From positions 26,682 through 90,681 of the forward strand of contig JADIIU010000052.1 in the NCBI GenBank assembly GCA_027603945.1: DNA of 64,000 nucleotides, read 5' to 3'. The stretch comes from Terramyces sp. JEL0728. Its lineage: Eukaryota; Chytridiomycota; Chytridiomycetes; Rhizophydiales; Terramycetaceae. Position 1 is the first letter of the stretch; every line of letters begins with the position of its first letter. This document shows positions 1 to 64,000 of this stretch, piece after piece. The notes under the pieces are model-generated. The model was given only the letters and a program-made list of their open reading frames with translations. It was not told the origin of the DNA and searched no databases. A program made the translations under genes and the position numbers.

Positions 1-2463
1 TCGACTGGAGTTCGGATAATGCCTTTTGGGTAGCATTTTCAAAGTCTCTCATTTGTTTTTGCCATTTTTCTTGCAGAACAGCAGCTTTTCCTTGTTGGAG
101 ATGATATTTTTCATACTCGGACATCAATTCGCCGTTGTATTTAATATCCAGTTCCTATGGTTACTTTTAAACTACGTGAAGTTCGCCAACATGTCTCGAT
201 CGGAGGTTTTGTGTTTGCTCTTGGTGCTTGACATCTTCTTTTTCCTTCTCTGTTCTAAGAACAGTTGTGGATACTTTAAGGACTTCAATTTCTTGGGAGA
301 ATGTTTCCGTGATTTCCTTTAGTTTTTCATTAAAGTTCATGTCTTTTAGTCGAAGCTGGTATTCATGTTCAAGCTTGAGCTCATCCAGCTGTCTTTGGAT
401 TTCTGCAGTCAGCACAGTCTTCTCTTCTAAATCGGATTTGGTTATGAGAATCTACAGGTAAATTTGCATTTACCTCGTCTGCGAATACTGTTCCTTTATC
501 TTTCTTTAGCGTTCTATCATCCTTATCGGTTAATCGAAACATGTAAATACATCCATCTTCGCCAACCGAAAAGAGATATTGGTCATCGCATGACACTTTG
601 ATCTTGGTTACTGGTGCTGAATGAGCCTGGTGCTCTTGGAAATCATGTTGGTCGCCAAATGGAAAACGCAATGCGCGGATAGTCCCTGCCTGGGTACCAA
701 CAAAGATCATTTTCCCTGAATTTGACAGAGCAATTTGGGTCATGACTTGATTTGATTCAAACTCCTTTGTTACAGTTGATTCCGTGATTTCCTTGACCAT
801 TCTATCAGTGCCTACAGCATACATAGTTCTACCGCTTGGAGAACAAACCGCATCAAAGTAGCCGCACGTTTTAAGGATATGTTCGTGCTCTCTTTTCATA
901 GTTCTCATGTTCCAAGTATACACCGCTCCATCAGAACCGGAAGATACCAAGCAACCGTCATCCGGAGTCCAATATAACGACTTTACTTTTCCATTATGGC
1001 CCTTCAAATTTTCAATATTTTCAAATGTCCATGTAGAAAATATTTGGACGATATTTCCATGAGCCGCGGCAAATATATGTCCACCATTAGAAAAACGGCA
1101 CTAGTATTAAAAATCAATCACCTCTTTGCAACTTCTAATGTTAAATTCGCGGACAGGACGCAAATCGTCCATCAAAATATTCATTAGTTTTAGTTTATCA
1201 TGGAATCCAATCAAAATATACAGTCCAGACGGATGTAACGAGATCGACTGAGGCTCGTCTACAAAGAATTTGACTATTTCACAATTACCAGTCAAATAAT
1301 TCCAAAATCGAATTGATTTATCCGATGATATAGTTACGATTATAGGTTTACGCACACACAGATCCAAACTTGTAATTGCGCCGTAGTGGAATGCCTCCAA
1401 AAACACCTCAAATTTAGCCTCTTCCACTGTTTGCGCTTTGGTTGGATTGTGAGCACTTATAATGACTTTGTACACCATGTTTGTGTTTACTTCCACCAAT
1501 AGCGTGTCCTCCCCAGTTGTAGATGCAAGCCCAGTAACGACCAATTGGTTATCTGGCAGCGTCATTGTTTGATGTAGGGTAAACCCGCCCTGTTCCAAGA
1601 CCAAGAAATTATAAATTGAAACTTGTCCTCCAGTACCTCCAATCGCAAACCCCCTCTTTGTCGGTTGGATGCTAGCAATTGTATTGTTTGAACCAGCCCC
1701 GCCAAACTGCTCTTTTTGTATAACTTGGCCATTGTCAATCAAAAACATCTCTCCGGTTCTAGCTCCGATAATCAAGCGATCAATTGTAACCCAGCAATGC
1801 CTGATGTAGTCGAGTGGAGGAAGTTCGATAGTAATTGGCTTCAATACACCTTCAATGAATCGGAAAATTGTTGCAAATCCTTTTCCAGTAACACACAGTT
1901 CCATATTGTCAAATGGATTAATCGATATTTGATATACTGGTTGATCGGGCGACGGGGTAGACACGACTGTTGCTAATGGTTTACCCTTTTCCCAAGGATA
2001 ATAATGCAGGATCCAGTCCGGCTTCCCCATCTGAGCTGCAAGGTATTTAGAGTCTACAGAGAAAGCCATTGAGATAAATTCCTAGTCTTAAATAATCTCG
2101 TACCCCTTGCTGCTGAGGAACTGAGGCGGTGAGTTTCCTTCTTTTTCGATATGTGTGCAGATCATATACATGAATGGATGGCTCTCCAGGCGACTTTTGG
2201 GCTACTGCAAACACATGTTTATCTGGCGCAACTGTCAAACAAGTAATGAAATTCAATATGTCTGAAACCGGGACAAACCTTTGTGATTTTTGTTCTACAT
2301 TTGATACTAGCGTAAATATATTTTACTGATAACATTGCTACCTGCAGGGTAGAGGACGGTATTTTCTTCAATGTAAAACAAATTGTCATTCACAGTCGAA
2401 GATAATCCAAATACAAAGCTCTATTAGTGAATATTACCCATGCGATACCGATGCAATCGACAT
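1..2463 (-). CDS. CFAP57: CFAP57 (WDR65) cilia- and flagella-associated WD40/coiled-coil protein, 3' end cut by window edge
   Basis: Axonemal protein of motile flagella, involved in assembly of inner dynein arm subsets. The N-terminal part starts MSIASSFVFG and leads into an ENTVLYPAG motif typical of the family. About 630 residues of WD40 repeats follow (for example ISSDKSIRFWN and SGSDGAVYTWN). After the intron at 452-473 a charged coiled coil begins (DEILITKSDLEEK). The gene runs off the left edge while still in the coiled coil. Six tiny introns restore one frame: 2421-2448 (28 nt), 2307-2326, 2082-2103, 1101-1121, 452-473 and 155-175. The start at 2463 is inferred: the first exon is only five codons, so the true start is less certain than the family assignment. 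Confidence 0.9.
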
Positions 2464-2744
2464 TTAATTGAGAGTTAAACTACGCGTATCTGGTGATGTC
2501 ATCCCAATGTGGTGCTACTACTATTTGAAACCCTCTACTTTCATTTTCATTCTGTTAGTACCAAGGTCGATTACTAGTATGCTCCAACTGCAAATATCCT
2601 TCATTGGACACCGGCTTGTTTTGCCATCAGCGGTTGCATTCAGACAATTAACGCAATGTAGCCCTTGTGCAACAACTAATTAAAAACTGAAACAACATGA
2701 TCATCCGTTAAATTGCGGCAAGCTTACTTTTTTTACTCTGAAAA
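2464..2744. other. divergent intergenic region between CFAP57 and HMG1
   Basis: 281 bp upstream of both a minus-strand flagellar gene and a plus-strand HMG-box gene. It contains TGATGTCA at about 2493-2500, a CRE/ATF-like octamer about 30 nt upstream of the CFAP57 start. A short open frame on the plus strand (2468-2683) has no ATG-based support and no recognisable family, so I treat it as noncoding. Confidence 0.5.
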
Positions 2745-3171
2745 ATGCATATTAAAAAAAAGGAACCAAAGCCAAAGCCAATAAAGAAGCCAATGAACTG
2801 GTAAATCCAACTTGATCCCAGCTTCTTTAGGTACAAGCAGGATATGCGCAAAAAAGTAATTGAAGAATACGGAGTTACGCAAAACAATGAAATTTCTCGT
2901 ATAATTGCTGAACTATGGAGCAAGGAATCACCGGAAATCAAACTTCGCTATTCAAAGGAGAGCGAGAAAGCATACCTTGAACATAGGGAGAAATACCCGT
3001 AACTATTGTTAATTTAGTGACTTTGTTTGGCCATCAAAGCTATCCACCAAATTGAAAAGAGAAAAGAAGGAAAAAGGCAGGATGGAAGTACGGTTCAACG
3101 ACTTTCGAACTGGATTTACACCTGAACTAGAGGACTGCGAACCCATTCAAAGATACTTGGCAAGTCTGTAA
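2745..3171 (+). CDS. MATA-type HMG-box protein 1 (128 aa)
   Basis: Small DNA-binding protein of the MATA_HMG-box class (fungal mating-type and related transcription factors). The start MHIKKKEPKPKPIKKPMN leads into the HMG box (FFRYKQDMRK, EISRIIAELW, YPDFVWPSK). Two introns must be removed: 2802-2822 (21 nt, just after KPMN) and 2999-3017 (19 nt, inside YPD). A short tail ends with FNDFRTGFTPELEDC and a final RYLASL. This tail motif is shared with HMG2 and HMG4 in this window. One of four paralogues within 8 kb. DNA targets and any mating role are not evident from sequence. Confidence 0.85.
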
Positions 3172-3333
3172 TTAAAAACCCATTTTTCATTTATTTATAA
3201 TGTCTGGATTTGCAATGCGAAAGTGCCGAGAAGGTGTTAAAGTGTCGAAAGGACTGGTGAGGAATTTTACAGTGAAAATAAGCAATTCCGAGCTTATTTT
3301 GTCCAGTAGCAACATTTTAAAGACAATCTCACG

Positions 3334-4380: not shown

Positions 4381-4534
4381 TCTATCTGTTAAAAAGAAAA
4401 AAAATATAGACCTCAAATCTATGCTGATATTTGCCCTCTATATTCCTATTGTTATTACTTGCAAAAGCTGGATAAATCCTTTCTTCTCGGCCGATAGTTT
4501 AAATTGCATACTGGAAAATTCAATTTTTTCAAAA

Positions 4535-5556
4535 ATGAAGGCAGTAATTGTTGAACAGCCAGGTATGAAATCCTAATATAGGAAGCGCATCGTACCTGAA
4601 ACTTGGACAAGTACCGGATGCAGTTCCTAAAAGCGACGAACTGCTCGTCAAAGTAAAGTACTTTGGACTGAACCGGATGGATATTTTGCAGCGGGATGGA
4701 AGATATCCAGTGCCCCCAAACGCTTCACCGATTCTAGGAGTTGAATTCGCTGGAGATGTAGTAACAGTCCCTGCAAATTCTAAATTCAAAGTTGGTGATC
4801 GTGTATTTGGATTAGTTTATGGTGGTGCTTATGCCGAGTATGTTGCAATCAACGAACGTATGGCAATGCAAATCCCTGCAAGTTTATCCTACAAAGAAGC
4901 TGCTGCACTTCCAGAAGTATGGTTCACTGCTACTCAAGCTTTAATTCATATCGGCAAAGTTAAAGCAGGCGAAAATGTGTTGCTTCATGCCGGCGCTTCT
5001 GGAGTTGGAACCGCAGCAATTCAAATTGCAAAGCATCTCAAAGCGTAATTATCTTTAATTTAGCGCAAATATTATTGTTACCGCTGGATCTGATGAAAAG
5101 ATTGCTTACTGTAAATCGCTAGGTGCAACCAGTGGTATCAATTACAAGACAGCTCCAGAGTTTGGCCAACAGGTATTAAAAGAAACTGGAAGAGGAGCGG
5201 ATTTTATTTTGGATTTCATTGGGGCTTCGTACTGGAACAACAACATGGAAGCGCTTGCTATGGATGGAAGAATGGTTATTCTCGGATTGATGGGAGGATT
5301 CAAACTGCCAGAAGCAGACATTTCTCCGTTTTTGAGAAAGAGAATCCAAGTAACTGGATCAACTCTAAGATCACGCACAATCGACTTTCAAGTGCAATTA
5401 AAAGATATTTTTACAAATGAATTGCTGCCAAGAATAGTATCTGGAGAATTGAAGCCGGTTATTGATCGCGAATATAGCTGGGAAAACATTGTGGAAGCTC
5501 ATTTGCACATGGAAGCCAATGCGAACGTTGGTAAAATTCTTGTTTCAACTGATTAA
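4535..5556 (+). CDS. PIG3-like NAD(P)H:quinone oxidoreductase (MDR family, 327 aa)
   Basis: Zinc-independent medium-chain dehydrogenase related to TP53I3/PIG3 and bacterial quinone oxidoreductases, which reduce quinones with NADPH. N-terminal MKAVIVEQPG, catalytic-fold segment YGGAYAEYV, then the Rossmann motif AGASGVGTAAIQIA and VTAGSDEKI. The frame is continuous only after removing two 19-nt introns, 4563-4581 (GTATGAAATCCTAATATAG) and 5045-5063 (GTAATTATCTTTAATTTAG). Both junctions then read through conserved family sequence (EQPGSASYLKL; KHLKAANIIVTAG). An AATAAA-like signal overlaps the stop codon. These two introns are the clearest demonstration of the intron type used across the window. 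Confidence 0.93.
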
Positions 5557-5928: not shown

Positions 5929-6456
5929 ATGTCAAAAACTAGTACAGAAGTAAAAAAGCCAATGAATTCATTCTTCAGGTATTCCGCAGCTAACGGTAGA
6001 TATAAAGCTCATGTGCGGGAAAGAATCGTTCAACAAACAGGAACAAACAAGAACAGCGTAATCAGTCGAATTGCTGCGCAAATGTGGGCAGAAGAATCAC
6101 CAGAAGTCAGAGCGCACTTTAACAAACTAACCGAGGAAGCATTTTTGGAACACCGCAAACTCTACCCAGATTTTCTTTGGCCATCAAAATCAGAAAAGTT
6201 TAAAATTGCAAAGCAAAAAGCAAAAGCAAAGCAAGCACTTTCCCTCAATACCAAAAGCAACGTTACCCGTCAATTTGTTCAACCACTGACTCCTAAAGAC
6301 GAAAACAAACTTGATTTTGAATTCACAGCCCCAATGTCTGCTAGATTAAATAAGCAATTTGATTTTGATTCGTTCAAGACTGGATGGACTCCAGCCAGAA
6401 ATGATATCAGTTTCCAAGCGTATATTAACCAGAGCCTCCTGGCTGCCAATCAATAA
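5929..6456 (+). CDS. MATA-type HMG-box protein 2 (168 aa)
   Basis: Starts MSKTSTEVKKPMNSFF, followed by the MATA_HMG box (ERIVQQTGTNKNSVISRI, AAQMWAEE, YPDFLWPSK), a basic linker (KIAKQKAKAKQA) and the tail motif FDSFKTGWTPARNDI ... AYINQSL. The frame looks uninterrupted, but 5979-5999 is a 21-nt GT...AG intron without stops. It would add seven residues (YSAANGR) inside the otherwise invariant FFRYK block, and its position matches the intron of HMG3 exactly. Splicing gives FFRYKAHVRE, as in the paralogues. The second HMG intron seen in HMG1 and HMG3 is absent here. The stop is followed immediately by an AATAAA-like signal. Confidence 0.87.
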   Translation: MSKTSTEVKKPMNSFFRYSAANGRYKAHVRERIVQQTGTNKNSVISRIAAQMWAEESPEVRAHFNKLTEEAFLEHRKLYPDFLWPSKSEKFKIAKQKAKAKQALSLNTKSNVTRQFVQPLTPKDENKLDFEFTAPMSARLNKQFDFDSFKTGWTPARNDISFQAYINQSLLAANQ

Positions 6457-7307: not shown

Positions 7308-8138
7308 ATGGATGAATTCAGGCTAAACCACATCCCCTTGAACAATATAAAAGCACAAACAAAGCGTGACCAACTAATGGAAAATTACTCTCCGCCGCCA
7401 AGGTATAATAGCAAAGCACACCAAGTAAAGAAACCTATGAATGCCTTCTTTAGGTACTAGCCGTCTAATATAAGGTATAAAGCAGCAATGAAGGATGAGA
7501 TTATTCGCCAAGCGGGAACAACAAAAGGAACAATAGTTAGCAAAGTTGCTGGAGAGATGTGGAAGAACGAACCGAAAGAAATCAGAGACTACTTTAACAA
7601 ACAAAGCGCAGACGCAGTGAATGAACATAGACGCAAATACCCAGACGTAGCTGTTTGCTAACAATAGTTTATTTGGCCAAGCAAGAATTCAAGAGCAAGA
7701 AAAGAAAAGCTCAAACGACACGACGGCCAGGTCATGGAACCATTTGGAATCATTTCTGCAGAAGAGCTAGCAGCAGTAGAACGGATGAATAATACTAACG
7801 ATTCTGATGAAGCTAGTACTGCCGATACCAATGTGCTGCCACCACTGTATCAAAATGATCGTCGTTCTTCTTCACACTCTGGAGGCTCACCAATACAAGG
7901 AAATCTACACAGCTTGCCACCAATGAATAGACCAAATATACAGCGGTTGCCGTCAATGACTCAGCATACATCGCCAATGATTTCAAATGCCCATCCCAGA
8001 GAAAACAGTTTGCCACCAATGCAAAGGGGGTATTCTGTGGATTCTATACCTCTAATGCATCCGCCTGTTCTACCAAGAGTGAATGCCAACCCTCCTCCTG
8101 GCTACGGCTATCCCAGTCAGGAGCCTTGGCATATGTGA
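7308..8138 (+). CDS. MATA-type HMG-box protein 3 with proline-rich tail (262 aa)
   Basis: HMG box flanked by an N-terminal extension (starting MDEFRLNHIPLNN) and a long Pro/Ser/Met-rich tail with repeated LPPMxR segments (SLPPMNRP, SLPPMQRG). Two 21-nt introns are removed: 7454-7474, which ends in AAG and lies in the FFR codon, and 7647-7667 after YPD. The spliced core reads FFRYKAAMKDEIIRQAG and YPDFIWPSK. Unlike HMG1, HMG2 and HMG4 it lacks the TG(F/W)TP tail motif. A TATAAAAG sequence near 7346 sits inside the N-terminal extension, so translation may instead begin at the ATG at 7377 (MENYSPPPR). Confidence 0.83.
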
Positions 8139-8236
8139 ATAATACGTTAATATCACTAATTTATTTAAGACTAATAAATGATTTTTAATTTCAAGACATT
8201 GTTCAAAGCATTTCTAAAGTAACAGTTTATTTATTC

Positions 8237-10063
8237 TCATCTTCTCCAATTCGAATCATTTGCATCTGGGATTGAGGTATTATCTGAAAAGTAGGAGTCT
8301 GTGCTTGGTTTAGGAGTTACATGTCTTCCACTCCTTGGCCCGTCAAATGATTCTGAAATCTGTCTTGTCTGTGGAGGTCTTGGTCTATCATAAGGATCAG
8401 AAGGTTGGCGACCAGCTGGTGGTCTTTTTGATTTTTCATCTGGTTTTTGGCGAGAAGCGACAGAACGATTTCCATCCCGGTCAACGGGCGGACGGCTGTT
8501 GTTTCTGGCTTGGTCATTGCGATTAGAGTCATATGGCTCTGATGGTCGACGTGCAGCATTGCGCGCCAGATCACTCTTTGGAGGGGCACTAGGGCTGTAT
8601 GGGTCTGAATTTTCCCTGGAATATTTATCTTTTTGATTAGGATTGGCATAGTTTATATTTGGATTGGTTTTTCCGGATATTGGTGTTTTTGGAGATCCGG
8701 AATATTGAGATTTGCCATGTTCACTTCCATTATCATATCTGGACCGCTGATTGTATCTTTTACTATCTTGTGATGATTGGTAACTTGAAGCATCATCGTC
8801 AGCGTAAGCACGGCGAGGCTCACTGTATCCTGCTTGTGGGCCGCGCTGATTTGCGTATTGATATTGTTGGTCATGTTGAGAATAGCCATATTGTGATCCT
8901 GGCACAGAATATTGATCAGCAGGCGGCGGATATTGGGGATTTGCATATCCATACTGTGATTGTCCATATTGTGAAGGAGGGCCATAACGTGAGGCAGAAT
9001 ATGCTTCACTGTGGACGGAAGGAGCATAATGTTCATCTTCAAAATCGATTGCTGGCAGTGTTGGTTGATTCTCAGAAGAATATTCAGAACCATTTTGAAT
9101 TCTTTCTCGCTCCTGTCTTCTAATATCCTGAAGTCTCCTTTTTGACTTTTTCTTTAAAATTTCCCCAATTCTTAGTTAGTTGTACGCACCTTTTATCAAT
9201 TTTATGGACACAGTATTCTTTCAGATTTCCTTGGATAAAGCACAACAGGATCAAGTACATACATCCAGCCATTACCAAAGTGATAAAACTGATGGACCAA
9301 ATAATAACAGTTGTAAGCTGTAGAGAAACATAAAACACAAGTGAAACAGTCTGGCCTGTACCGTAAGGATTAAACATTTCCTGAATGGCATTTACGAAAT
9401 TTCCTTTTTGATTGTGAAAATGAAACAGCCATACTGAATACAAAATTCCAGCAGATAAAAACTGACGGGGAAATTCCGCAAAGAGCAATCGCATCCATCC
9501 TCGTAGTTTGAAGAAAACCCAAAACGCCATAATATCAACAGTTTTTCTAGAATTTTGAATTTGGTTAAAAAAGCAGTAGTGAGGGTATGATCTAATACAG
9601 TAATAACGGTATGCAATGGTTGAGGTGAACGCATAAGAGATATCCCTCGATTTGATAACTTTCCAAGATTTGTTCCATTCCAATGCTACTAGTACAAACG
9701 ATACCAAAAACGAAAGGAGGATAATAAAGAAAGTCGGTGCGGTGCCAAGAGTACTAATCACTGGGTTTGTTGAACTTTCATTCAGAGTGGAATTGCTTCC
9801 TCCAAAGTTAGTTACCACAAAGTCCTGCTTCTGTCCTTGGAAGAAAGCTTTTATTGCTGAAGAGTTGATGGAAAATAAAAGCATAATGGAGACAAATTCA
9901 AAGCCGTACACCATGAAATCTTTGTTAGCCCAAGGATACCTTTTAGTGTTCCAAAGAATACTGTTACATAGGATAGTTTGCGGCCAAATGCATTGTCAAT
10001 GAAATCATCTACGTCTATATAATCAAAGTTGTGGTCTGGAATCTCTTTCCGCTTCCAGGACAT
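8237..10063 (-). CDS. KCH-family potassium transporter-like membrane protein (595 aa)
   Basis: Resembles the fungal KCH1/KCH2 (PRM6) family of plasma-membrane proteins for low-affinity K+ uptake. It starts MSWKRKEIPDHNFDYIDVDD and carries the family segments IAYRYYCIRSYPHYCFF, AFWVFFKLRGWMRLLFAE and LKEYCVHKIDKR. Several hydrophobic helices lie in residues roughly 60-330. Two introns are required: 9920-9939 (20 nt) and 9171-9189 (19 nt, ending CTAAG). Without the latter the frame hits a stop right after the last helix. The C-terminal ~270 residues are a Gln/Tyr/Ser/Pro-rich low-complexity tail. Convergent with HMG3, 98 bp apart. Confidence 0.82.
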
Positions 10064-10388
10064 TTTGAAAGTTTTGCAAGTGCTTTTCAAACCGCTTTGG
10101 CTTAAATCGGGACCTCTAAAAGAACACTTGAATGACTGCAACCTTTGTAAGCACCGGCAGTCATCATAGAACAAGTTCGGCCCTGTAGCAGGAGCTGCCT
10201 TGTAACCCAGAAGCAGCCATTTCTCTTCCAAGTGTCTTGTTTCACCAGACTGACTAATTGTTAGACCTCATCCTTAGCCAGTCTAGCTAAAGCTGCCAGC
10301 TAGATTTAGTGTGACTGAGAGCGACTATTGAGGAGTAAAATAATTGAATCGCAGTTGGTGCAATAAAGATTAAAATTTACATGATATA
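10064..10388. other. 325-bp region between HMG4 3' end and KCH 5' end
   Basis: A reading frame extends upstream of KCH but without a supported start. I see no RNA gene or repeat. It presumably holds the KCH promoter, because both flanking genes are on the minus strand. Confidence 0.35.
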
Positions 10389-10826
10389 TTACGATATCAA
10401 CGAGTAATCAATGTACTCTAATATAGGCGGACATTCTTCTATTTCTGGAGTAAACCCAGTTTTAAATTCATAAAAATCAAACGGAACAGCGTTCTTATCT
10501 TCTGATGAAGGGGTTTGAGATTCAAATTTAAGCTTGAGGATGGCTTTCTTGAACTTTGAGGACCGGCTTGGCCAAACGTATCCTGGAAATTTCTGTCTAT
10601 GTTCATTGAATGCTTGCTGGGTTAGCCTGTTAAAGTGGTCCTTTACATGCTGTGGTTCTTCTTTCCACATCTGAGCCGCTATTCTGGACAAGTCGCTGTT
10701 CTTGTGTGTACCTGCTCTTTGAATGATTTTTTCACGCATAGCAGCCTTGTATCGAAAGAAAGCGTTCAAAGGCTTCTTTATGTTGAGAGCAGCGTGTCGC
10801 AGATTGATAGTGTCGAAATTGGACAT
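10389..10826 (-). CDS. MATA-type HMG-box protein 4, intronless (145 aa)
   Basis: Starts MSNFDTINLRHAALNIKKP, then the HMG box FFRYKAAMREKIIQRAG, DLSRIAAQMWKEE and FPGYVWPSR. The tail motif is FYEFKTGFTPEIEECPP ... EYIDYSL. It has neither intron seen in the paralogues, and the FFRYK block is continuous, which confirms that the seven extra residues in the unspliced HMG2 frame are intronic. In-frame upstream codons include no ATG before 10826. Intron loss could reflect copying through a spliced transcript, which is inference. Confidence 0.87.
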   Translation of the reverse strand: MSNFDTINLRHAALNIKKPLNAFFRYKAAMREKIIQRAGTHKNSDLSRIAAQMWKEEPQHVKDHFNRLTQQAFNEHRQKFPGYVWPSRSSKFKKAILKLKFESQTPSSEDKNAVPFDFYEFKTGFTPEIEECPPILEYIDYSLIS

Positions 10827-13689: not shown

Positions 13690-15142
13690 TCAAACTTGAT
13701 TTAGTTTCTTCCAGTTAACAATACTCTTGAACACATGATCCAAAACATGACGCGCATCTTGTTTTTCTGGCTCCAACTTCTCCATTAGTCCTAGAATCTG
13801 TCCACATTCTCTCATATAATATTCTAAATCGTCGTCTGTGCATTTGTTTGTCAGCTGAGCTAGCTTTGCCTTTTCACTGGCAAAGTGTTCGTCCAAGTCA
13901 AACAAGTCCAGTGCTGGAGGCGGTATTTCTTGTAGAATCGGTGGGAATACAGCTGGTTCTAGCGGTGGCAGCGGAGTCTCAAATTGCGGCTGGATCAGAG
14001 TCAAAGGCTCGTGCTTCAGTCCGAGATGCTATATAAGTAAAGTAATACTCCATATAAATGCACAGCTTGAGGAATGAGGGAAGTATCAAACTTGAACAGC
14101 TTTGTATCAAATAGTGTCGTAAAGTCTTTTGGCAAATCTTCGCTCTCTTGCAAGCAAGATCTCAGAGTCTCCGACAAGCTGGCTGTTTCCGGCAAATAGT
14201 GGTAGTCTGAAATCTATAATTAAATATAAATACATCTGGCTCATTTGCATCAATTGAATTCAATACAAGTGTATCAAAAGTTAGCAAAATATACCTTTTG
14301 TAAGGAACTGTATAATAACATCAAACAGTTTCCCGTTTTCTTCCTTGTCAATATATGCATCTGAAAACATCTGAGCAGAGCCAAGCGCAAATAGCTTTCC
14401 GCCTTTGTTTGAAATCTCATACACACCAGCCAACGGTCTATTGAGCGGATAAGAAACTGTTCCAGAAGACAGAATCGGAACTGCTGGTTTTTGGACATTT
14501 AATGAAGCCCCAAATGGATACAAGAACGTCAAAGCACTACATCAGCATTATATACGTTGGGTCAAAATGATGGTGTTCTGATAGTATTGGATCTCCTGGT
14601 GCTGACCCGACTTTCTTTCCTGCAGCTCTATTAAATTCTCTATTCAACACTCCATGCGTGACATAAACTTCTTTTGGGTGAAAGTATTTATAATATACAG
14701 TTCTAGCAAGTGCGTCTTTGATTAGCTAAAAGTACCTGGATTGACAGTCATCCCGTATTCCTCGAGTAAATAATTGAAATTTGTGTTGAATGCCGATTCA
14801 CCACCTTCTCCCGCCATGTACAATATCGATCCACCGCGCTCCAAGAAGCCTTTAAGGGCAGTAAACTGCTGTTAGTAACAAGTACTTCTGCAGTTGAAAA
14901 CTTTTCTCTTGGTGCTCCAAATACAATCAAATTCACGTCTACTAGTTTGGGAAGACTCATATCCTCCTTAAATCTATCGTTAGGACGGTTTACAATGTGA
15001 CTTTGCAATGACCCCTTAAACGGCGTTGAAGAGTTTTAAATCCATTGGTTGGCGTATATTGCTCTTTTTTAGAGATATTGAAGGCGATTGTTGGAAGATT
15101 TGACTGGTCTTTGTCTGCTGCCTGGTCTCTCACTGAAAGCAT
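13690..15142 (-). CDS. IFT52: IFT52 intraflagellar transport protein 52 (437 aa)
   Basis: Core subunit of the IFT-B complex that builds flagella. The N-terminal GIFT domain contains VNLIVFGAPREKFS and GGSILYMAGEGGES. A middle block reads LYPFGASLNVQKPAVPILSS, and the conserved C-terminal part reads LTLIQPQFETPLPPLEPAVF and TNKCTDDDLEYYMREC. Seven introns of 19-20 nt interrupt it; after their removal the length equals human IFT52. The intron at 14275-14294 begins GT but ends TG. The flanking conserved sequence (LTKD ... SIDANEPDISDYHYLP) leaves little freedom for another junction. The stop is only 4 nt from that of the convergent patatin-like gene. Confidence 0.95.
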
Positions 15143-16421: not shown

Positions 16422-17410
16422 TTAACGAGGTGCTGGTACTGGAGGAGGTTTCCTTACGCTGTTTCTACTTGGCGGTGGAGGAGGAGGTCTTGCTTTTCCT
16501 TGTGTGCCAATATTAACTGGGGGATCTCCAGAAGGAAACTGTCTTGGCAGTGGAATATCTAGCTGGAAAGTCCATCTTCCGTCTGTTATTGTTTTCGATG
16601 AATTGCTTGTTACAGAAATGCTTGGTTTCGAAATTTCCTGAATGGATGATCGTGGTGAGTGATTTGGAGAGATTGGCATTGGAGGTTTTACTGGCGGTTG
16701 CAACGTGCTTCGCGCAGCTACAGAAGGCGGGTCTCGTGCAGCTATTGGAGGAGGGTCTCTCGATGGCACAGGAGGAAAGTTTCTAGATGCCACAAGAGGA
16801 GGGTCTCTCGCAGCTACCGGAGGAAAGTCCCTAGTCGCTACTGGAGGGGGCGGCCCTTTAGCTTGAGGAGGCGATAGTGTTGTTTTAAAAGCTGGAGTAG
16901 GGGCTGGCGGATTTGGACGGCCAACAGGTACAGGAGGGTTAGGTCTCGCATTAAATGCAGGCACTGGATTTGCAGGCTGATTAAACGAAGGCGCTCTATT
17001 CCTTGTTGCTGGTGCAGGAGCATCTCTGTTTGAATTATCTGCTGTTACAACAATAGTACCATTTGAATTTGCTGTAGATTTCAATTTTGGCATCCCGCCT
17101 GCAAATAAACCACCTAATTGTGGTGCTGAAGGTGCATCGTTCCTACTAGTTTGTGAAGTCCTGTTTGGCAGCCCCATTGGCGCAGGTGTTGGTCGGGAAT
17201 TGTTTCCTTTTCCAGCTAATTGTCAGATATCACATACCTAATGTTAGAATAAATCTTACCGTCCATAACTGGAGAACTTCTGTCATTCGTTTCCACTTTC
17301 TTTAACCTTGCACCTTTCTGTATAGATTTTAATAATGCGTTTGGTTGCGCAGCTGGAGGACCTGACGATACCATCGGAGCTGGAGGAGGCGCTGGAGGTG
17401 GAGGAGGCAT
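16422..17410 (-). CDS. verprolin/WIP-like WH2 protein (314 aa)
   Basis: Proline-rich actin regulator. It begins MPPPPPAPPPAPM, followed by a WH2 actin-binding motif NALLKSIQKGARLKKVETND and SSPVMDG, as in WASP-interacting proteins. The middle is low-complexity proline-rich with a degenerate eight-residue repeat (RDPPxVAA, RNFPPVPS). The C-terminus has DGRWTFQLDIPLPRQF, resembling the WASP-binding end of WIP/verprolin, then polyproline to the end. The only intron, 17216-17259, is 44 nt and consists of two complete 22-nt GT-AG units in direct contact. Inferred role: linking Arp2/3 activation to actin at endocytic or motility sites. Confidence 0.85.
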
Positions 17411-27173: not shown

Positions 27174-29098
<1,925 letters not shown>

Positions 29099-29566
29099 CT
29101 ATACCAAGTTTATTGTGTTCAAATCCCTCAGTAGAGTAGGAGTGTCCTTGTACACTAGCACATTCTCACCAACGGGCTCTTCAAAATCGCCAAGTTGTGA
29201 ATCCAGCAACTCTTTTTTAAAAAAGTGGTTTCTGGTTTCCAATCTATGGGTCAGCGTCTGCTTGTCTACTTTTAAATATACAAAAATTGCATCGGAAAAC
29301 ATTTCCCTGTATTTTTTCTTCAAGCAAGAGCAAGCCAAGATAACGGTTCCATCCAGGGTTTTCAGGTGTTTGATAATCGCCTGTAACCAAGGATATCTAT
29401 CTTTATCCTCTAATGGTATATTATTCGTCATCTTTTGTTTGTTTTCTATAGGGTGGAAATCATCGGCATCGATGAATACACTCGGGATTGTTTTGGATAG
29501 TTCTAATCCTAGGTATGTTTTTCCACAGCCAGATACTCCAAATAGTATGATTAATTTACTGTACAT
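29099..29566 (-). CDS. gluconokinase (155 aa)
   Basis: Phosphorylates gluconate to 6-phosphogluconate, feeding the pentose phosphate pathway. P-loop FGVSGCGKT at the N-terminus, DADDFHP and KMTNNIPLEDKDRYPWL substrate motifs, then ACSCLKKKYR; all are typical of GntK-type kinases. Intronless and full length for the family. It ends near TINLV and lies 51 bp upstream of DBP2 on the same strand. Confidence 0.93.
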   Translation of the reverse strand: MYSKLIILFGVSGCGKTYLGLELSKTIPSVFIDADDFHPIENKQKMTNNIPLEDKDRYPWLQAIIKHLKTLDGTVILACSCLKKKYREMFSDAIFVYLKVDKQTLTHRLETRNHFFKKELLDSQLGDFEEPVGENVLVYKDTPTLLRDLNTINLV

Positions 29567-37070: not shown

Positions 37071-39189
37071 ATGGGGAGAAAAGTGTATCCAGATGAAGAC
37101 AATGAAGAAATCAAAGTGCCTTCATTCATGCAGCAGACGCGATACTGCCGCGATGTCCCGTTTCTGATTTTGTTTATGGTTTTTTGGTTTGGTATGATTC
37201 TAGTAGCTACAAGCGCTGTGAAAGAAGGAGATCCTAAAAGATTAATGTAATGTATAACTAACTCGGTGTCCCACAAGATTATTTAGGGAATTACTGTGGA
37301 TATGTCACTTACGATTCGAACGGGACAATCACTGCTTTTGGAAACCAAACTACGAACCCTTACTTGTACTACTTTAATCTCTTTAGTAAATTAAACCTGA
37401 TAACAGGCCCTGCAACGACTAGCGCCATTTGTGTCTCTGCATGTCCAAACAGCACCGAGATTTTGTCCTACTCAAACGCGCTATGTGTGTATAACACCAC
37501 AGCTACAGCCCAGAATTTCTACAGCGAGGTCAGTACTGGATTGTGTGTCAGTTACACTATAGAATCTTCACCTATATTGAATAGATGTATCCCAGCAATA
37601 GCTGCAGCTGCAGCATCTACAATTGTTAATTCAACTTCTGCAAACACCACTATAAGTGCCAATACCACCTCTACAACTAGTGTCAGCAATATTCTCAGTG
37701 AAGGTAGAGATGCTACGATGCAAATTATTGCAGATTTAACAATAACTTGGCCAGTTATCGCGATCGGTGCCGGTGTTTCATTGGTTATCTGCTTGATTTG
37801 GATGCTTCTACTTCAGAAAATTGCAGCGTTCTTTGTTTGGCTGACTATTATTGCTTGCAATTTAGTGTTTGACGTTGGAGCTATTTGGCTATATCTTTAT
37901 TGGCAAACAAGGCTGGCAGAGGATAGTGGGGGTTCCACCTCTGGAGTGGTTGCATATGCGAGTGCTTATGTCGGAATCAACAACTCTACTGCCGGAATTC
38001 AAATCGAGACGCAGACGGTTGCTAATGTATTTTATGTTATGTGTGCAATTGCAGGACTACTACTGTTGATCACGCTTGCATTGATTAAGCGTATTGTTAT
38101 CGCAATCAGAGTTATAAAGCAAGCATCAAAAGCAATGTCAAGCATGCCGACCATCAGTATATATGCAGTTAATCATAGTCATTTTCCCGCTATTTATTTG
38201 GATATTGATGATTGCCAACCTGGTTTATTTTATATACATTATGCTATATATCATAACACCATCGGGACAAGTGACACCATCAATTGAGTTGTTTTCTTTG
38301 GTTTGGACAGATTCGAATATCAGTCAATATGAATTAGGCTACCATATCTTTGGCTTCTTGTGGACATTATTCTTCTTTAGTGGAATCAACCAAGTCACAA
38401 TCGCCGGCGCAATAGCTACATGGTACTGGACTATGGACAAGAAGAAAAGCCTCAAATTGCCAGTACTAAGATCATTGGGAAGAACTTTGCTCTATCATCT
38501 AGGTTCCATTGCTGTTGGTTCGTTACTAATTGCCATCGTTGAATTTATTAGGATTCTACTATACGAAGTTCAAAGACGGATAAAAAAGACACAGAACCAA
38601 TTTTTGATTTACTTGGTTGCTTGTTTGCAGTGTTGCATGAAAGTAGTTAGTATGCTGGTCAAGTTTATCAACCGGAACGCATATATTTACCTGGCAATCA
38701 CGGGGAAGGCGTTCTTCAAGTCTGCCGGTGAGGCTACCGCCTTGATTGTCAAAAATGCATTAAGAACGGTTGCAGTCGATTTTGTGTCAGACTTTGTTTT
38801 GTTTATTTCAAAGTTATTTGTGACTGGAATAGCCGCATTCTTGGCATACCTATATTTGACATATTGGAGCTCGGCACTGCCAAATGCCTCGTCCATTAAT
38901 TATCCTTTTGTAACAGTTGTTTTTGTAGGAATCGCTGCATTCATTGTGGGCACTGCATTTTTCAGCATTTACGATATGGCCATCAACACCATTTTCCTGT
39001 CATTCTTAATGGATATCGATAAGAACGATGGTTCAAGGGAACGACCTTATTATATGGCCGATGACTTGAAGAAAGTCTTGGGGATTGAGAATGAAGAGCC
39101 AAAGAAAAAGGAAAAGGTAAGCTTGCGCTAATGTCTAGGGCACCGCTCCAAAGAAAGTAAAGCACACGCAGCATATTGATGAGCTCTAA
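37071..39189 (+). CDS. choline transporter-like protein CTL/PNS1, copy 1 (684 aa)
   Basis: SLC44/PNS1-type multi-pass membrane protein. It has an N-terminal cytoplasmic stretch, a first helix (VPFLILFMVFWFGMILVATS), a large extracellular loop with cysteines and N-glycosylation sites (NYCGYVTY, NSTSANTT), then about nine helices. Conserved core elements are YHIFGFLWTLFFFSGINQVT, LGSIAVGSLLIAIVEFIR, CLQCCMKVV and INRNAYI. Introns: 37247-37266 (20 nt, GT...GG), one of 22 nt near 38154-38175, and one of 22 nt near 39118-39139. The last gives a short Lys-rich tail ending HIDEL. Tandem with copy 2. Proposed substrate choline, from family knowledge only. Confidence 0.9.
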
Positions 39190-55914: not shown

Positions 55915-55966
55915 TATATTGTACATTTGCAACATGCCCAAAAGTTTACTTTTTTTCGATTTTCCA

Positions 55967-58184
55967 ATGAGTTCTCCAAGAGAATTGCTTACAAAAATTG
56001 CAAAGAATTTGAACCCAGACTTGCTCTCATATGTAAATGATCGCTAATAAGGCTTTGGGCTACCTAGAAGACGATACCAGCGATCTTTCTTACACTTCAA
56101 TTTACGAATTCATCCAACCTATATTGGAGGAAGTGGATGTACCAGACAGTGACATTCAGATGCTGTGCAAAGAACTAGCTAGAGATGAACAGGAAGACGA
56201 GGGAGCAGTTGAATTGAGCGAAAAGATTCAAATGCACGCCAGTATGTCAGAAACAATCGTATTCCAAAAGAAAGTTGGGGATATCAGACATGGTTATTAA
56301 CATTAATGGTAGGGATGTCAAGCAGAGGTCCACAGCAATCTACTGTTGATTTGAAGAAATTGCGCAATGCTGAACGTAAAATCGAAGAAAAAAGAAAACA
56401 GCGTGAATTCAATGGAGAAATTATTCCTGAATGGAATCCGAATATGGCTCCGTCGATGGTTGTCAATCAAGCAAAACAAAATATATCTGCTGATTCAAGA
56501 TCAAAGGATATCAAATTGGAGTATTCTGACTTAATCCTAGCGATTTCGATATTCAGTTTGCAGGGAAAAAGATTATCCAAAATGCCAGTTTATTGCTTGC
56601 AAATGGAAGGAGATATGGTTTGGTTGGAAAGAACGGCGTTGGTAAATCAACATTGTTGAGAGCAATTGGAAACAAGGAATTGGCAATCCCACCTCATTTA
56701 AAGGTTTTGCACGTGGAGCAGGAAATTGTCGGAGATGATACATTGGCACTTCAATCAGTATTGAAAGCAGACACCGAAAGAGAATCCCTATTGGAAGAGG
56801 AAGTTAAACTAAACCAGAAATTAAACAAAAATTCAACATCCATCGAAGACAGTGCAACAATTACTGCAAGATTAAAGACTATTTACGGCAGATTAGAAGA
56901 ACTTGAGAGTGATACTGCCGAATCGAGAGCATCTGCAATTTTATCGGGATTAGGGTTTTCCGTTGACCAGCAGCGTGCTGCTACAAAAACCTTTTCTGGT
57001 GGTTGGAAAATGAGATTAGCCTTAGCAAGAGCAATCTTTTGCAAGCCAGATTTACTTTTGGCGGATGAAGTTACCAACTACCTCGATTTTCCTGCTGTTG
57101 TATGGCTTGAAAAATGCTTTGAAAATTGGGAAGGCACAATCTTGGTTGTGTCACACGATAGATCATTCTTAGATACCGTTGCAACAGATATTTTACATTT
57201 GCAAAACAACCAATTGGATGCATATCGTGGAAACTTTTCTTACTTTGTTGGAACAAGGGCAGAAAAGAGAAGAAATCTTATTAGGGAATACGAATCGCAA
57301 TTGCAATATAGACAGCATTTGCAGGACTTTATTGACAGATGGAGATACAATGCAAAAAGAGCAGGTAAATAACACTAATCCTAGCGTTGGCTCAGAGTAA
57401 AATCAAAATATTGGAAAAGCTACCTCCACTTGTTGAACCTCCAAAGGATGACATGGAAGGACTTGGTGAAGGGCAGGATGGCCTGTACTTTAGATTCCCA
57501 GATCCTGAAAAGTTGTCCCCTCCTATTTTACAAATGAACGAGGTTACATTTGGGTACACTAAAGAAAGGACTATTCTCAAAGGAGTATCGTTTGACGTTC
57601 AAATGGAAAGTAAGATTGCTATTGTTGGTCCAAATGGCGCTGGTAAATCAACATTGATACACTTGTTGACTGGAGAAAACGCTCCATCCAGCGGTATCTG
57701 CCATCGCCATGGCCGTCTTCGTCTCGCCCTCTTTTCTCAGCACCACGTTGATCAATTGGTCTTGGCAAACAGTTCGGTACAATTTTTACAGGGAAAATTC
57801 CCTGGAATGGTGGAAGAAGAATACAGAAAGATTCTTGGACGGTTCGGTTTAACCGGCATGACAGCTATGCAACCAATTGGTACATTATCTGGAGGGCAAA
57901 AGTCTAGGGTAGTATTTGCTTGGATGTCTATGATGAACCCACACGTTATTGTCCTTGACGAGCCTACATCTCACTTGGATATGGACTCTATCGATGCTCT
58001 CAGTAATGCCCTTAAGGAATTCAGAGGTGGAATCGCTATTGTTTCGCACGACCAGAGATTCTTGGACTCTGTCTGCAAAGAAGTTTGGATATGTAACGAA
58101 GGCACTTTAACTAAATTCGGCGGAAAAGACGGCGACACAAGAGGTGTGGTTGAACAGTACAAGGCTTCACTGGTGGGCAATTAA
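55967..58184 (+). CDS. ABCF3/GCN20-like ABC ATPase (712 aa)
   Basis: Soluble twin-ABC protein that acts with GCN1 on ribosomes to activate GCN2. Helical N-terminus (SSPRELLTKIAKNLNPDLLS) and a basic linker (LRNAERKIEEKRKQRE). NBD1 has Walker A GLVGKNGVGKSTLL and signature FSGGWKMRLALARA. NBD2 has VGPNGAGKSTLIHLL, LSGGQKSRVVFA and LDEPTSHLD. In NBD1 the Walker B/D-loop reads ADEVTNYLD instead of LDEPTNHLD, with Pro and His replaced; the catalytic Glu is kept. Four introns of 19-20 nt. Its stop lies 18 nt from the convergent TRMT2A stop. Confidence 0.93.
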
Positions 58185-58202
58185 GTTTAATAAATGAATT
58201 TA

Positions 58203-60557: not shown

Positions 60558-60959
60558 ATGAAATTCTCTCTCCCTGTACTAGTATCTTTGACCAATGCAG
60601 CAGCTATCCTTGGGTCAGTGTCGTTTTATACTGCCGACTGTCCTGGCTTTCCTCCAGTAGATAATTTCTACACTACAACCCCAGATACTACCCTCACTCC
60701 AAAGGACTCTACAACTATAAAATCTTTGCAATGGGAATATCCTAGTAACTCTTACCAGTTGTCATTCTACTTGGATAAATCTAGCACAGATCCCTATGCC
60801 GTGGTTACTGGTTTGCCTCACCAGACTTTCCAAGGCAACCTTTGCGGTTTCCATCAACCTCACGGATTGACTGTATTGCATGTGGATGAAGAACTAGTTG
60901 GCAAGTCTAACAAACTATTCCTTCAACCAGAATCATACGTTAAATTCACCTTAGTTTAA
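60558..60959 (+). CDS. small secreted protein, family member 2 (133 aa)
   Basis: Paralogue of 53021-53419, about 7 kb away, in the same orientation. Signal peptide MKFSLPVLVSLTNAAA; an alternative ATG 15 nt upstream would prepend MRPEK, but both paralogues fit an MKF start. The mature part shares IKSLQWEYPSNSYQLSFYL, DPYAVVTG, GNLCGFHQPHGL and the final VKFTLV, with conserved cysteines. Function unknown. Confidence 0.75.
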   Translation: MKFSLPVLVSLTNAAAILGSVSFYTADCPGFPPVDNFYTTTPDTTLTPKDSTTIKSLQWEYPSNSYQLSFYLDKSSTDPYAVVTGLPHQTFQGNLCGFHQPHGLTVLHVDEELVGKSNKLFLQPESYVKFTLV

Positions 60960-60981
60960 GACGTAGTATAGAAATAAACCT

Positions 60982-61062
60982 CTTGATTTCACTTTGCATT
61001 GAACTTTATTCTTGATTTCTCACTGCATTGAACTTTATTCTTGATTTCTCACTGCATTGAAA
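60982..61062 (+). repeat. 29-bp tandem repeat, about 2.8 copies
   Basis: Unit CTTGATTTCTCACTGCATTG plus AACTTTATT. The second and third copies are identical over their shared length and the first has small differences. It fills the gap between secreted-protein gene 2 and CDKAL1, so it may affect the 3' end of one or the promoter of the other. Confidence 0.85.
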
Positions 61063-61093
61063 CTATCCCGATATTTTTTTTGTTTTTTTACAC

Positions 61094-62903
61094 ATGGATG
61101 ACATTGAAGACATTGTAGCTCCAACCGACGGACAACAAGCCAGGAAATCAGCTGGATTGGTAGGAATAAAGAAATTCAAAAATCCCGTCACAGAAAAGCA
61201 AGTTGAAAAGGATTCATTTCTTCCTGGACAGGCGTCAGTGTATGTAAAGACTTGGGGATGGTAATTATCGATAATATAGTGGACATAACAATTCAGATGG
61301 AGAGTATATGGCGGGCCTTTTAGCAGCCGAAGGATATAATGTCTTGTTGGAAACTGACAAAGCAAACGATGCTGATGTTTGGGTTTTGAATTCATGTACA
61401 GTAAAAGGACCTTCGCAACAAACTTTTGCAAATGACATTCAAAAAGGTATTGACGGCGGAAAGAAGGTCGTTGTTGCTGGTTGTGTGCCTCAAGGAAATC
61501 CAAACGGCGACGAATGGAAGAGTTTATCCATCATTGGTGTTCAGCAAATTGATCAAGTTGTACATGTAGTCGAAGAAACTTTGAAAGGAAACACTGTAAA
61601 GTTTTTGAGAGATGCCAAGGAATTGGACAAAGAAGGAAAGAAGAGAAAAGCTGGTGGTGCACCATTGAATTTACCTAAAATTCGTAGAAACCCGTTCATT
61701 GAAATCATTCCTGTTAATACTGGCTGCTTGAACCAATGTACCTATTGCAAAACAAAACATGCTAGAGGAGACTTGGGTTCATATTCGATTGACGAAATTG
61801 TTGCCAGAGTGAATGCCGTATTGGACGAGGGTGTGTTGGAAATCTGGCTTACTTCAGAAGATATTGGTGCGTATGGTATCGATATTGGCGTTACAATCGT
61901 TCAGCTGCTTTGGAAAATTATTGAAGCGATGGAACATCATCCATCAAAAATTGCAAAATTGCGAGTGGGAATGACCAATCCTCCTTATATTTTGGAGCAT
62001 TTGGATGAAATGGCAAAGATATTAGCACATGACAGAGTATACAGTTTCCTGCACGTTCCAGTTCAAGCTGGCTCAACTAAAGTACTAGATGATATGCGAA
62101 GATTGTACAAAATTGAAGACTTTGAAAGAGTATGCGACGTCTTACTTACCAAAGTGCCTGGTATTACCTTAGCAACCGACGTTATTTGCGGCAAGTTATT
62201 TTTTATCTTAGGATTCCCAACAGAGACTGAAGCCGACTTTGACGAAACTATGAGAATCCTTGAAAAGTATAGATTCAGCGTTCTTCACATTTCTCAATTT
62301 TATCCTCGTCCTGGTACCCCAGCAGCAAGAATGAAAAGAGTGCCTACTCAAGAAGTAAAGAAGAGATCTAGAAGAGCTACCGCATTCTTTGAATCGTACA
62401 CATCCTACGATAGTTATCTTGGAAAAGAAGTAGAAATCTTAATTACAGAAGCTTCGTCAGATGGCAACAACTACATTGGGCATGACAAATTCTATCACCA
62501 AGTACTAGTGGAAAAAGACCCAAAACTAATGGGGCAGCAAGTGAGAGTGAAAGTTACAAAAACAAGCAAATGGAACTTGATGGGAAGTGTTATCCCTGAA
62601 TCACTTCAGGAACTAACCAATGGGTCTGTTTTGCCAAAAAGAATTCCAAAATTGGTAAGAGTAAACAAGCAAGTTGTAGTGTTGGACGAAAACACTGAGT
62701 CTGACCAAAGAGCTGATGGAGCTTTGTTATCCCTTGGCACCAAAGAAGTAGAGCTTATTCAAGACGGCGAAAAGACATTAAACCTGGCCAAATATGCTGG
62801 TTTGGGAGTGTTTTCTGCCATAGTGTTGGTAGCTCCAATCAGATCCACATTGAAGGCAAGTCTGATTGCTTTTGGTGCTATTGCTACTCATTACTTTAAA
62901 TAA
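61094..62903 (+). CDS. CDKAL1: CDKAL1-like tRNA methylthiotransferase (589 aa)
   Basis: Radical-SAM enzyme converting t6A37 to ms2t6A37 in tRNA. N-terminal UPF0004 domain ([40 protein letters not shown]). The radical SAM cluster is TGCLNQCTYCKTKHARG (C-x3-C-x2-C). A TRAM-type domain follows (GKEVEILITEASSDGNNYIG), and a C-terminal hydrophobic tail anchor suits ER location. Two introns: 61261-61279 (19 nt) supplies the Cys of TWGC. 62191-62211 (21 nt, stop-free) begins GCAAGT; its removal restores the family's DVICGFPTET. Confidence 0.95.
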
Positions 62904-62938
62904 ATTAATAGTACAAATAGCTACAATTTAAATATTGT

Positions 62939-63811
62939 TTATTTCTTTGCAAAGATTTCAGCAAATGTGGTTGGAGTGATGTTGAATTCCTTTGCGTGGT
63001 TTTCTTTTGACAGCCCATAACCTTGTCCGATCCAAGTTCTGAGGAAAGTTCCAAAGTTGGCATATGGATCTGCTCCTTCTAAACTCTTCTTTGCTTGCTC
63101 GACCGTGATGTATGTCTTTTTCCATTTCGATCCAGTTTGTTTTTCATACTCTGCAACAAGTTCGTTGTAGGTAAACACTAGTCCTTGGGCCCGGAGGTAA
63201 ATGATTTTGTCTGCTTTGTTGGTGGTTGGGTGGTTGATAGACTCGGCGACTACCTGGCCAATTTGTGGGATGGACCATCCTCCGACCTTGGCATTGCCGT
63301 CGCCAACAATCTCTATTGTGCTGTTCGCGAAATCTGCAGAGTAGAATGGAGAAAGAGCCCATTCCGCAAAGAATCCTGTGAACGCGACAACTGTTTGTAG
63401 TCCAGCTGCTTCTGCTGCCTTTCTGACGCTGGCCTTGACTTCAACTAGTGGATGTGCTGCAGGGTACTCGACATCGTCAATGCCGTACTCGGATGGATAG
63501 AAGCGAGAAACCCCAGCTTTCTTTGCCGCATCGATAAGTTGGATTTGTTCAGCAAGTGCTGCTCCACCTGTAGCTGAGATCACTACTTGCACGCCTTTCA
63601 ATGCTGTAGCAATCGAATCCGCGTTCTTGAAATCTGCAGTTACAATTTCTGCACCGCTGGATCTGAATTCATCCAAGAGCTCTTTCTTTGATGTGAGAGT
63701 GTCTTCTCTGGTAACGATCTTTACTTTAAACTTCTTTGCGATGACTGCCTTTGCAATGGACACACCAAGGTTCCCGGTAGCTCCGACGACTGCGACTGTT
63801 TCAAATGCCAT
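62939..63811 (-). CDS. NmrA/isoflavone-reductase-like NAD(P)-binding protein (290 aa)
   Basis: Atypical short-chain dehydrogenase. Rossmann motif VAVVGATGNLGVSIAKAVI, TADFKNADSIATALKGVQVV, VSRFYPSEYGID, and TGFFAEWALSPF as in fungal NmrA-like reductases. Intronless and full length. MAFETVAVV is the natural start; in-frame codons upstream to 63889 carry a TATA element and are probably promoter. Substrate or regulatory role unknown. AATAAA overlaps the stop. Confidence 0.88.
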   Translation of the reverse strand: MAFETVAVVGATGNLGVSIAKAVIAKKFKVKIVTREDTLTSKKELLDEFRSSGAEIVTADFKNADSIATALKGVQVVISATGGAALAEQIQLIDAAKKAGVSRFYPSEYGIDDVEYPAAHPLVEVKASVRKAAEAAGLQTVVAFTGFFAEWALSPFYSADFANSTIEIVGDGNAKVGGWSIPQIGQVVAESINHPTTNKADKIIYLRAQGLVFTYNELVAEYEKQTGSKWKKTYITVEQAKKSLEGADPYANFGTFLRTWIGQGYGLSKENHAKEFNITPTTFAEIFAKK

Positions 63812-64000
63812 TCTGTTGATTTGATGGCATTCTGGCAAACTGGTAGCTTTTATAGTTTTCCTTTTTTCCACTTTCATTTGCTTCGCCACCCCATTTTTCC
63901 ACTATGGAATTATTCCACTTTGCGAAAGGCTGTCATCTTGAATAGCAATCTTAATGTAAATAGCTACCAATCGTTTCTAGCCCGTCCTTGCATTTCGTTC
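63812..64000. other. upstream region of the NmrA-like gene, to window end
   Basis: Contains the TATA element and no recognisable gene up to the right edge. Confidence 0.35.
63848..63854 (-). promoter_or_regulatory. TATA box of the NmrA-like gene
   Basis: TATAAAA on the minus strand, about 37 nt upstream of the start codon at 63811, similar in spacing to the TATA box at 60523. It supports the shorter protein start. Confidence 0.5.

Follow-up and report, generated by a model that had tools for sequence, protein, structure and literature searches.

Terramyces sp. JEL0728, a chytrid (Chytridiomycota, Rhizophydiales, Terramycetaceae), very probably carries U2-type spliceosomal introns of about 20 nucleotides (nt) in its nuclear genome, as judged from its DNA and from comparison with related proteins. 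The analysis centered on a window of 64,000 nt (contig positions 26682-90681; window positions below are counted from its first letter) in an assembly of 15,016,339 bp and 231 contigs, and it shows, in a member of the fungi, introns whose branch point all but touches the acceptor. A first-pass annotation of the window had described such introns in a fungal-type lineage, and the organism is indeed a chytrid, which we take to be free-living. Genes were modeled in the window and in positions 1-200000 of contig C1 of the same assembly (C1:1-200000), 264 kb together.

The length class was already evident in a gene finder that used no intron motifs. This finder read both strands with a coding model trained on long open reading frames, accepted GT-AG ends with a prior that was flat over lengths of 10-150 nt, and was kept motif-free in order to avoid circularity. 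Of the 309 introns that it placed, 113 had 19-22 nt, against 18, 12, 11, 7, 9, 6, 4, and 12 (of 304-326 each) for eight decoy dinucleotide pairs in the same run. A second run, with motifs added and a flat prior of 11-300 nt, found 54, 104, 58, and 21 introns of 19, 20, 21, and 22 nt, or 237 of 378, and the remainder were scattered. In the final model, which admits GT-AG and GT-TG introns and includes a few gene models rejected afterwards, 421 of the 443 introns measured 17-24 nt, which gives a density of about 1.95 short introns in each kb of coding sequence. As in a tiny-intron genome, the great majority of the introns were thus shorter than about 25 nt and confined to a narrow range. Intron-like strings of the form GTA...[CT]TAA...AG with a length of 19-21 nt occurred 56 times on the two strands, where about 15 were obtained in third-order Markov simulations. 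Elsewhere between 12 and 79 nt the same strings were mostly near expectation, while those of 72 and 73 nt were also high (10 and 12 against expected values of 4.3 and 4.4).

For the window itself, about 84 introns had been placed earlier, some 80 of them at 15-28 nt, and the final model has 94 introns, of which 89 are 17-22 nt long. The short ones included 34 introns of 20 nt, 25 of 21 nt, 20 of 19 nt, eight of 22 nt, and single introns of 17 and 18 nt. A TG candidate at 29084-29104, counted among the 89, was dropped because it would fuse two genes. The five longer introns measured 65, 88, 140, 163, and 180 nt, the last being the one covered by the homology check. Two 19-nt introns that had been offered as typical are present as described (Table 1), the first in a gene at 4535-5556 that we assume to be quinone oxidoreductase-like. 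As a separate observation, complete short introns adjoined each other directly, without an intervening exon, at three places: one pair of 22 and 22 nt in the window (Table 1), one of 20 and 20 nt at C1:92337-92376 on the minus strand, and one of 21 and 21 nt at C1:126215-126256 on the plus strand. Each pair would be either a single intron of 40-44 nt or a case of sequential, recursive-like splicing.

The short introns share a tight internal geometry. Their donor consensus is loose (GTAATT/GTATTT): among the 421 short introns, G occupied position -1 in 48%, A positions +3 and +4 in 88% and 53%, and T positions +5 and +6 in 47% and 56%, and the commonest donor hexamer was GTAATT (55 occurrences), with GTAAGT in 15. 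The branch motif was YTRAY, with which the GUAGUA element of the U2 small nuclear RNA (snRNA) is able to pair, as is characteristic of the U2 type. Branch geometry was counted on the 356 short introns whose branch score exceeded 2, excluding 65 with a score of 2 or less. The branch A stood at +14 in 157, at +15 in 133, and at +16 in 32 of these introns (290 of 356 at +14 or +15). It was followed by five nt in 134 and six nt in 142 (276 of 356), which bears out the earlier estimate of about 4-7 nt before the 3' end. The total length is divided between the donor-branch and branch-acceptor gaps mostly as 14+5 in 19-nt introns, as 14+6 or 15+5 in 20-nt introns, as 15+6 in 21-nt introns, and as 16+6 or 15+7 in 22-nt introns. 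Acceptor position -3 was T or C in 86%, and a T-rich stretch preceded the branch (T 38-56% at +5 to +8). Over the 264 kb, intron length thus shows a spike at 19-22 nt and the geometry is fixed, the branch A at a set place with a tail of about five nt as in Stentor.

Protein comparison supported individual introns. The joined exons restored the protein across GT-AG borders, as in introns of the U2 type. In the ABCF3/GCN20-like and IFT52 genes, every junction was compared with 119 homologues per gene and scored as gapless over six amino acids on either side, the denominators in Table 1 being the homologues with aligned flanks. The ABCF model protein matches the GenBank protein HDV01_005885 of Terramyces sp. 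JEL0728 letter for letter, with all four introns removed. The GenBank IFT52 protein is the same at five of the seven junctions; around the remaining two, one of them that of an intron apparently ending in TG, a conserved segment is missing from it. In the DBP2-like gene, all junctions align through to yeast DBP2 (8ark_A), including that of the 180-nt intron, whose 3' end resembles those of the short introns. Yeast DBP2 presumably carries a long intron as well, and a 180-nt regulatory intron may therefore have escaped shrinkage. Apart from IFT52, the ABCF protein, and DBP2, the window genes are named from a reading of the translations.

Table 1. Genes and introns discussed in the text. Positions are those of the window unless preceded by C1.
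Feature	Position	Strand	Basis or remark
ABCF3/GCN20-like gene, four introns of 19-20 nt, predicted 712-amino-acid protein	55967..58184	+	Equals GenBank HDV01_005885
19-nt intron GTAAATGATCGCTAATAAG, ABCF gene	56033..56051	+	75/87 homologues gapless
20-nt intron GTTATTAACATTAATGGTAG, ABCF gene	56293..56312	+	45/79 gapless, variable region; junction as in GenBank protein
20-nt intron GTATTCTGACTTAATCCTAG, ABCF gene	56521..56540	+	116/116 gapless
20-nt intron GTAAATAACACTAATCCTAG, ABCF gene	57365..57384	+	116/119 gapless
IFT52 gene, seven introns of 19-20 nt, one apparently GT-TG	13690..15142	-	Gene model compared with GenBank protein and relatives
20-nt intron GTAAACCGTCCTAACGATAG, IFT52	14974..14993	-	114/115 gapless
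20-nt intron GTACTTGTTACTAACAGCAG, IFT52	14866..14885	-	117/118 gapless
20-nt intron GTACTTTTAGCTAATCAAAG, IFT52	14716..14735	-	117/118 gapless
19-nt intron GTATATAATGCTGATGTAG, IFT52	14537..14555	-	67/99 gapless, variable region
20-nt apparent GT-TG intron GTATATTTTGCTAACTTTTG, IFT52	14275..14294	-	101/116 gapless; branch A at +14, then 6 nt
20-nt intron GTATTTATATTTAATTATAG, IFT52	14214..14233	-	114/115 gapless
20-nt intron GTATTACTTTACTTATATAG, IFT52	14029..14048	-	116/117 gapless
19-nt intron GTATGAAATCCTAATATAG, first earlier example	4563..4581	+	Gene model; not placed by motif-free run
19-nt intron GTAATTATCTTTAATTTAG, second earlier example	5045..5063	+	Placed already by motif-free run with flat prior
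DBP2-like gene, two short introns plus a 180-nt one	27174-29047	-	All junctions align through to yeast DBP2 (8ark_A)
21-nt intron GTTGCCCTGTATTAATATTAG, DBP2-like gene	27915..27935	-	Junction within alignment to yeast DBP2 (8ark_A)
180-nt intron, 3' end TTAACACCAG, DBP2-like gene	27508..27687	-	Junction ARGL/DVKD ungapped against yeast DBP2
20-nt intron GTACTTTTTGGTTAACGTAG, DBP2-like gene	27397..27416	-	Junction ungapped against yeast DBP2
Apparent GT-TG intron, dynamin	C1:33871-33891	-	Ungapped homologue alignment, moderate conservation
Apparent GT-TG intron, DNA polymerase lambda-like gene	C1:129775-129794	-	Ungapped from four residues before junction onward
Two adjoining 22-nt introns, or one of 44 nt	17216..17259	-	Gene model

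Genes read as MATA-HMG-like from their translations were clustered in the window, at 2745-3171, 5929-6456, and 7308-8138 on the plus strand and at 8237-10826 on the minus strand. Each of these models had at least one intron of 19-21 nt, and the model at 8237-10826 probably merges two genes.

The use of TG as an acceptor goes beyond the first-pass annotation, which reported none. Acceptors were examined by allowing one non-AG dinucleotide per run under a flat prior of 15-39 nt; this test, like the second run above, was motif-based, yet its length prior was still flat. TG yielded 13 introns at 19-22 nt and the other 14 dinucleotides one to four each (33 in total, mean 2.4; Poisson tail about 1e-6), so that TG was the sole enriched non-AG acceptor, in a comparison where pruning was not applied equally to the other 14. 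Beyond 19-22 nt, TG resembled the other acceptors (18 against 9-28). Homology supported three of the 13 candidates, namely those in IFT52, the DNA polymerase lambda-like gene, and dynamin. By the motif score, all three had the branch A at +14 or +15 and a tail of 5-6 nt; the polymerase lambda-like case had a low branch score (1.1) and a three-residue gap just upstream of the ungapped stretch at its junction.

Other TG candidates were replaced by better readings. The candidate C1:57908 was dropped because a 23-nt AG intron yields GVGSTGRVKL, read by hand as what we take to be a kinase-like motif, and C1:109538 because a 46-nt AG intron yields DKVGLIIGKGG, presumably KH-like. Similarly, C1:100301 was dropped, and a 15-nt intron at C1:100301-100315 was judged wrong, because a 20-nt intron at C1:100296-100315 restores what we take to be the cysteine spacing of Zn2Cys6 proteins. 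Six candidates were neither supported nor dropped (C1:127880, 127906, 13902, 91128, and 141909, and 37247 in the window). Among them, window position 37247 and C1:127906 count little for TG because they were also taken with CG or GG and with GG, respectively, and the C1 protein containing candidate 13902 matched no Pfam family. A run with a wider length range also gave 13 TG introns, partly a different set, of which 12 were within the 421 short introns, including the four that were dropped. A base-call error could explain a single TG case, yet it would not prefer TG over CG or GG. It is therefore likely that TG acceptors are used at a rate of at least three in about 420, provided that the three supported cases hold. 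Where only AG is admitted, annotation will break some genes in Terramyces, as in the GenBank IFT52 protein without the conserved segment beside its TG intron. No enrichment was found for GC-AG introns (three at 19-22 nt; other non-GT donors gave zero to six, with GA highest at six), and the first intron of U2AF1 (L042) reads best as a 22-nt GC-AG intron with the donor GCAAGT.

Splicing components were sought in the assembly, and those that could be read seem conventional in sequence, with no striking insertion or loss. The U2 snRNA was recovered at full length (140 bits). U2AF1 is itself interrupted by four introns of 22, 19, 19, and 19 nt, and its spliced protein aligns to residues 1-190 of S. 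pombe U2AF23 across both zinc fingers and the UHM, with two single-residue gaps, none of them at a junction. U2AF2 aligns across RRM1-RRM2, and its C-terminal part matches human UHM chains. In SF1, which was partly read, the HH and KH domains are present, and SF1-HH scored 114.6 bits when spliced against 66.2 and 42.9 bits for the separate exons. The genome therefore encodes U2AF and SF1, as expected where introns are of the U2 type. SF3A3 is conserved, and its reading frame is 100% identical to HDV01_000550 of Terramyces sp. JEL0728 across the aligned 97% of the query. In U1C, introns of 21 and 22 nt flank a 10-nt exon (L039:1618-1627, minus strand) that the zf-U1 domain needs: this domain scored 69 bits over residues 1-38 when spliced and 52.4 bits over 7-38 as a single exon. 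The earlier hint at an altered U2 and U2AF thus did not hold for the U2 snRNA, U2AF1, U2AF2, the partial SF1, SF3A3, and U1C; SF3B1 and PRP8 were not among the searches.

These are most probably ordinary major-spliceosome introns that have shrunk to about 20 nt, near a geometric limit, and the RNA would be cut exactly at the predicted borders. During splicing, U6 pairs with about positions +2 to +6 and U2 with about seven nt ending just past the branch A. With the branch A at +14 or +15, just one to three nt would therefore separate the two helices, the U6-paired stretch and the U2-paired stretch (about +9 to +16) lying almost end to end, and the lariat ring would comprise about 14-15 nt. Since the tail has 5-6 nt, there is no space for a pyrimidine tract 3' of the branch, and U2AF would have to act before or without full contact, or via the T-rich sequence that precedes the branch. 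Such tight spacing could let distance place the acceptor and would account for TG being able to work at that position. We infer, at about even chances, that selection of the 3' splice site depends largely on a fixed spacing from the branch point. For the recognition factors that were read, no gross change seems to be required. More tentatively, and with somewhat less than even confidence, the canonical set of U2, the U2AF heterodimer, and SF1 may handle introns whose donor and branch helices nearly abut, with a ruler of 5-6 nt from the branch point, not AG as such, setting the end and TG being genuinely used. If so, the much longer intron minimum in humans would be a property of regulators and not of the core spliceosome.

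Adapted machinery is an unlikely explanation, though one with a precedent in short human introns, where SPF45 stands in for U2AF when the tract is truncated. Here SPF45/RBM17 would replace U2AF, SMU1/RED would take part, or Yju2, Cwc25, or Isy1 would be altered, with U2AF serving mainly the rare long introns. Excerpts of the relevant papers describe SPF45, not U2AF, acting on human introns with a truncated pyrimidine tract (PMC8363638), and branching factors with parts not conserved in Stentor (PMC9505925). The 5-6 nt tail, which leaves no normal pyrimidine tract, would suit such a change as well. Against it stand the conventional U2AF1, U2AF2, and read part of SF1; a search for RED_N gave no candidate, though its controls were likewise silent, and the searches did not extend to SPF45, SMU1, or the branching factors.

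Several observations weigh against the view of a U2-type genome with introns near 20 nt. The modeled 264 kb amount to 1.8% of the genome, and the support consists of DNA sequence and protein comparison. All models after the motif-free run are biased to short introns because their motifs were learned from a set of 18-23 nt, and some junctions in variable regions were gapless in just 57-68% of the homologues. In the final model, 22 of the 443 introns fall outside 17-24 nt. Many of these may reflect false bridging by the gene finder, but the two that were tested by protein continuity, of 46 and 180 nt, both look real. The spliceosome is thus not restricted to 20 nt, and the earlier description of the introns as mostly 19-22 nt stands for the majority, with rare longer ones beside them. 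Weak searches by Rfam and by pattern did not find a U1 snRNA in the assembly. For U6, a weak search gave two matches below the cut-off, and the canonical core was not found in the assembly with up to three mismatches; the match at L052 was taken as chance, as its core departs from the consensus. RED_N and the N-terminal domain of U1-70K had no candidates in weak searches whose controls were equally silent, and Rfam and tRNA scans of the window returned no matches. The donor pairing cannot be read because U1 and a convincing U6 were not found. A loss of U1 is not claimed because U1C is present, and since U6 is essential, interruption, divergence, or a gap in the assembly is a likelier reason for not finding its gene than true absence.

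It is very improbable that the pattern comes from indels introduced by assembly or sequencing, or from in-frame coding insertions misread as introns. Such a reading could draw on the 109 of the 421 short introns that are divisible by three, 28 of which would add no in-frame stop if retained. It does not account for decoys without a length spike, for GTA, branch, and YAG motifs at a fixed spacing, for homologues that lack the segments, or for GenBank models that remove all four introns in ABCF and five of seven in IFT52. Removal by the minor (U12-type) or another non-U2 pathway, for which the missing U1 snRNA could be cited, is equally remote, given that AT-AC ends showed no enrichment (four of 30 at 19-22 nt, inside the zero to six of unrelated donors) and that the YTRAY branch, U2 snRNA, U2AF, SF1, and U1C are present; U11, U12, and U6atac were not searched genome-wide.

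Genomes with tiny introns were known before from heterotrich ciliates, chlorarachniophyte nucleomorphs, and mikrocytid parasites, and the comparisons below draw on excerpts of the cited papers. Stentor coeruleus, itself free-living, has introns of 15-16 nt with the branch A at position 10 or 11 and five nt after it (PMC9505925). Terramyces resembles it in that nearly all introns are tiny and GU-AG, with a fixed branch A and a short tail, and U2AF1 and U2AF2 are listed as present in Stentor (PMC9505925). In contrast, the ring has 10-11 nt in Stentor against about 14-15 nt in Terramyces, Stentor is described as lacking a strong branch consensus (PMC9505925) where Terramyces has a clear one, and Terramyces has, in addition, apparent TG acceptors and a small number of longer introns. 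Chlorarachniophyte nucleomorph introns of 18-21 nt (PMC10245619, PMC2483917) have a similar length range and narrow spread, but the nucleomorph is a reduced endosymbiont nucleus, whereas Terramyces has the 15 Mb nuclear genome of a fungus. Mikrocytids have introns of 16-17 nt, with 224 introns in M. mackini (PMC10245619), that are likewise very uniform and conserved in sequence. They are parasites with a reduced spliceosome, unlike Terramyces with its intron density and its conventional U2AF and SF1.

The anchoring of the branch point near the 3' splice site has been described in Yarrowia, Giardia, and Trichomonas (PMC2483917), which share with Terramyces a fixed, short branch-acceptor distance and no pyrimidine tract after the branch. 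These organisms have few introns, which are not unusually small, with a mean of 269 nt in Yarrowia if the columns of the table are read rightly (PMC2483917). TG acceptors of the U2 type are documented in 36 human genes as experimentally verified alternative 3' splice sites (PMC2374985), whereas in Terramyces TG is apparently the sole acceptor, at the standard distance, as predicted from sequence. The literature searched held no report of introns of about 20 nt in a fungus, although broad listings are weak as evidence of absence, and the excerpted text of a fungal intron survey mentions none (PMC8476143).

Terramyces therefore joins the tiny-intron genomes, possibly with TG acceptors, a strong branch motif, and a few long introns as features of its own, and it unites tiny introns with a branch point anchored near the acceptor in an intron-rich fungus. 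A length of about 20 nt is near the smallest that a spliceosome is known to handle. Because the splicing parts that were read look ordinary, work on the lower size limit of splicing would become possible in a fungus, and Terramyces, which shares its kingdom with yeasts of known spliceosome structure, would offer a system for the questions of minimal intron size and 3' splice site choice.

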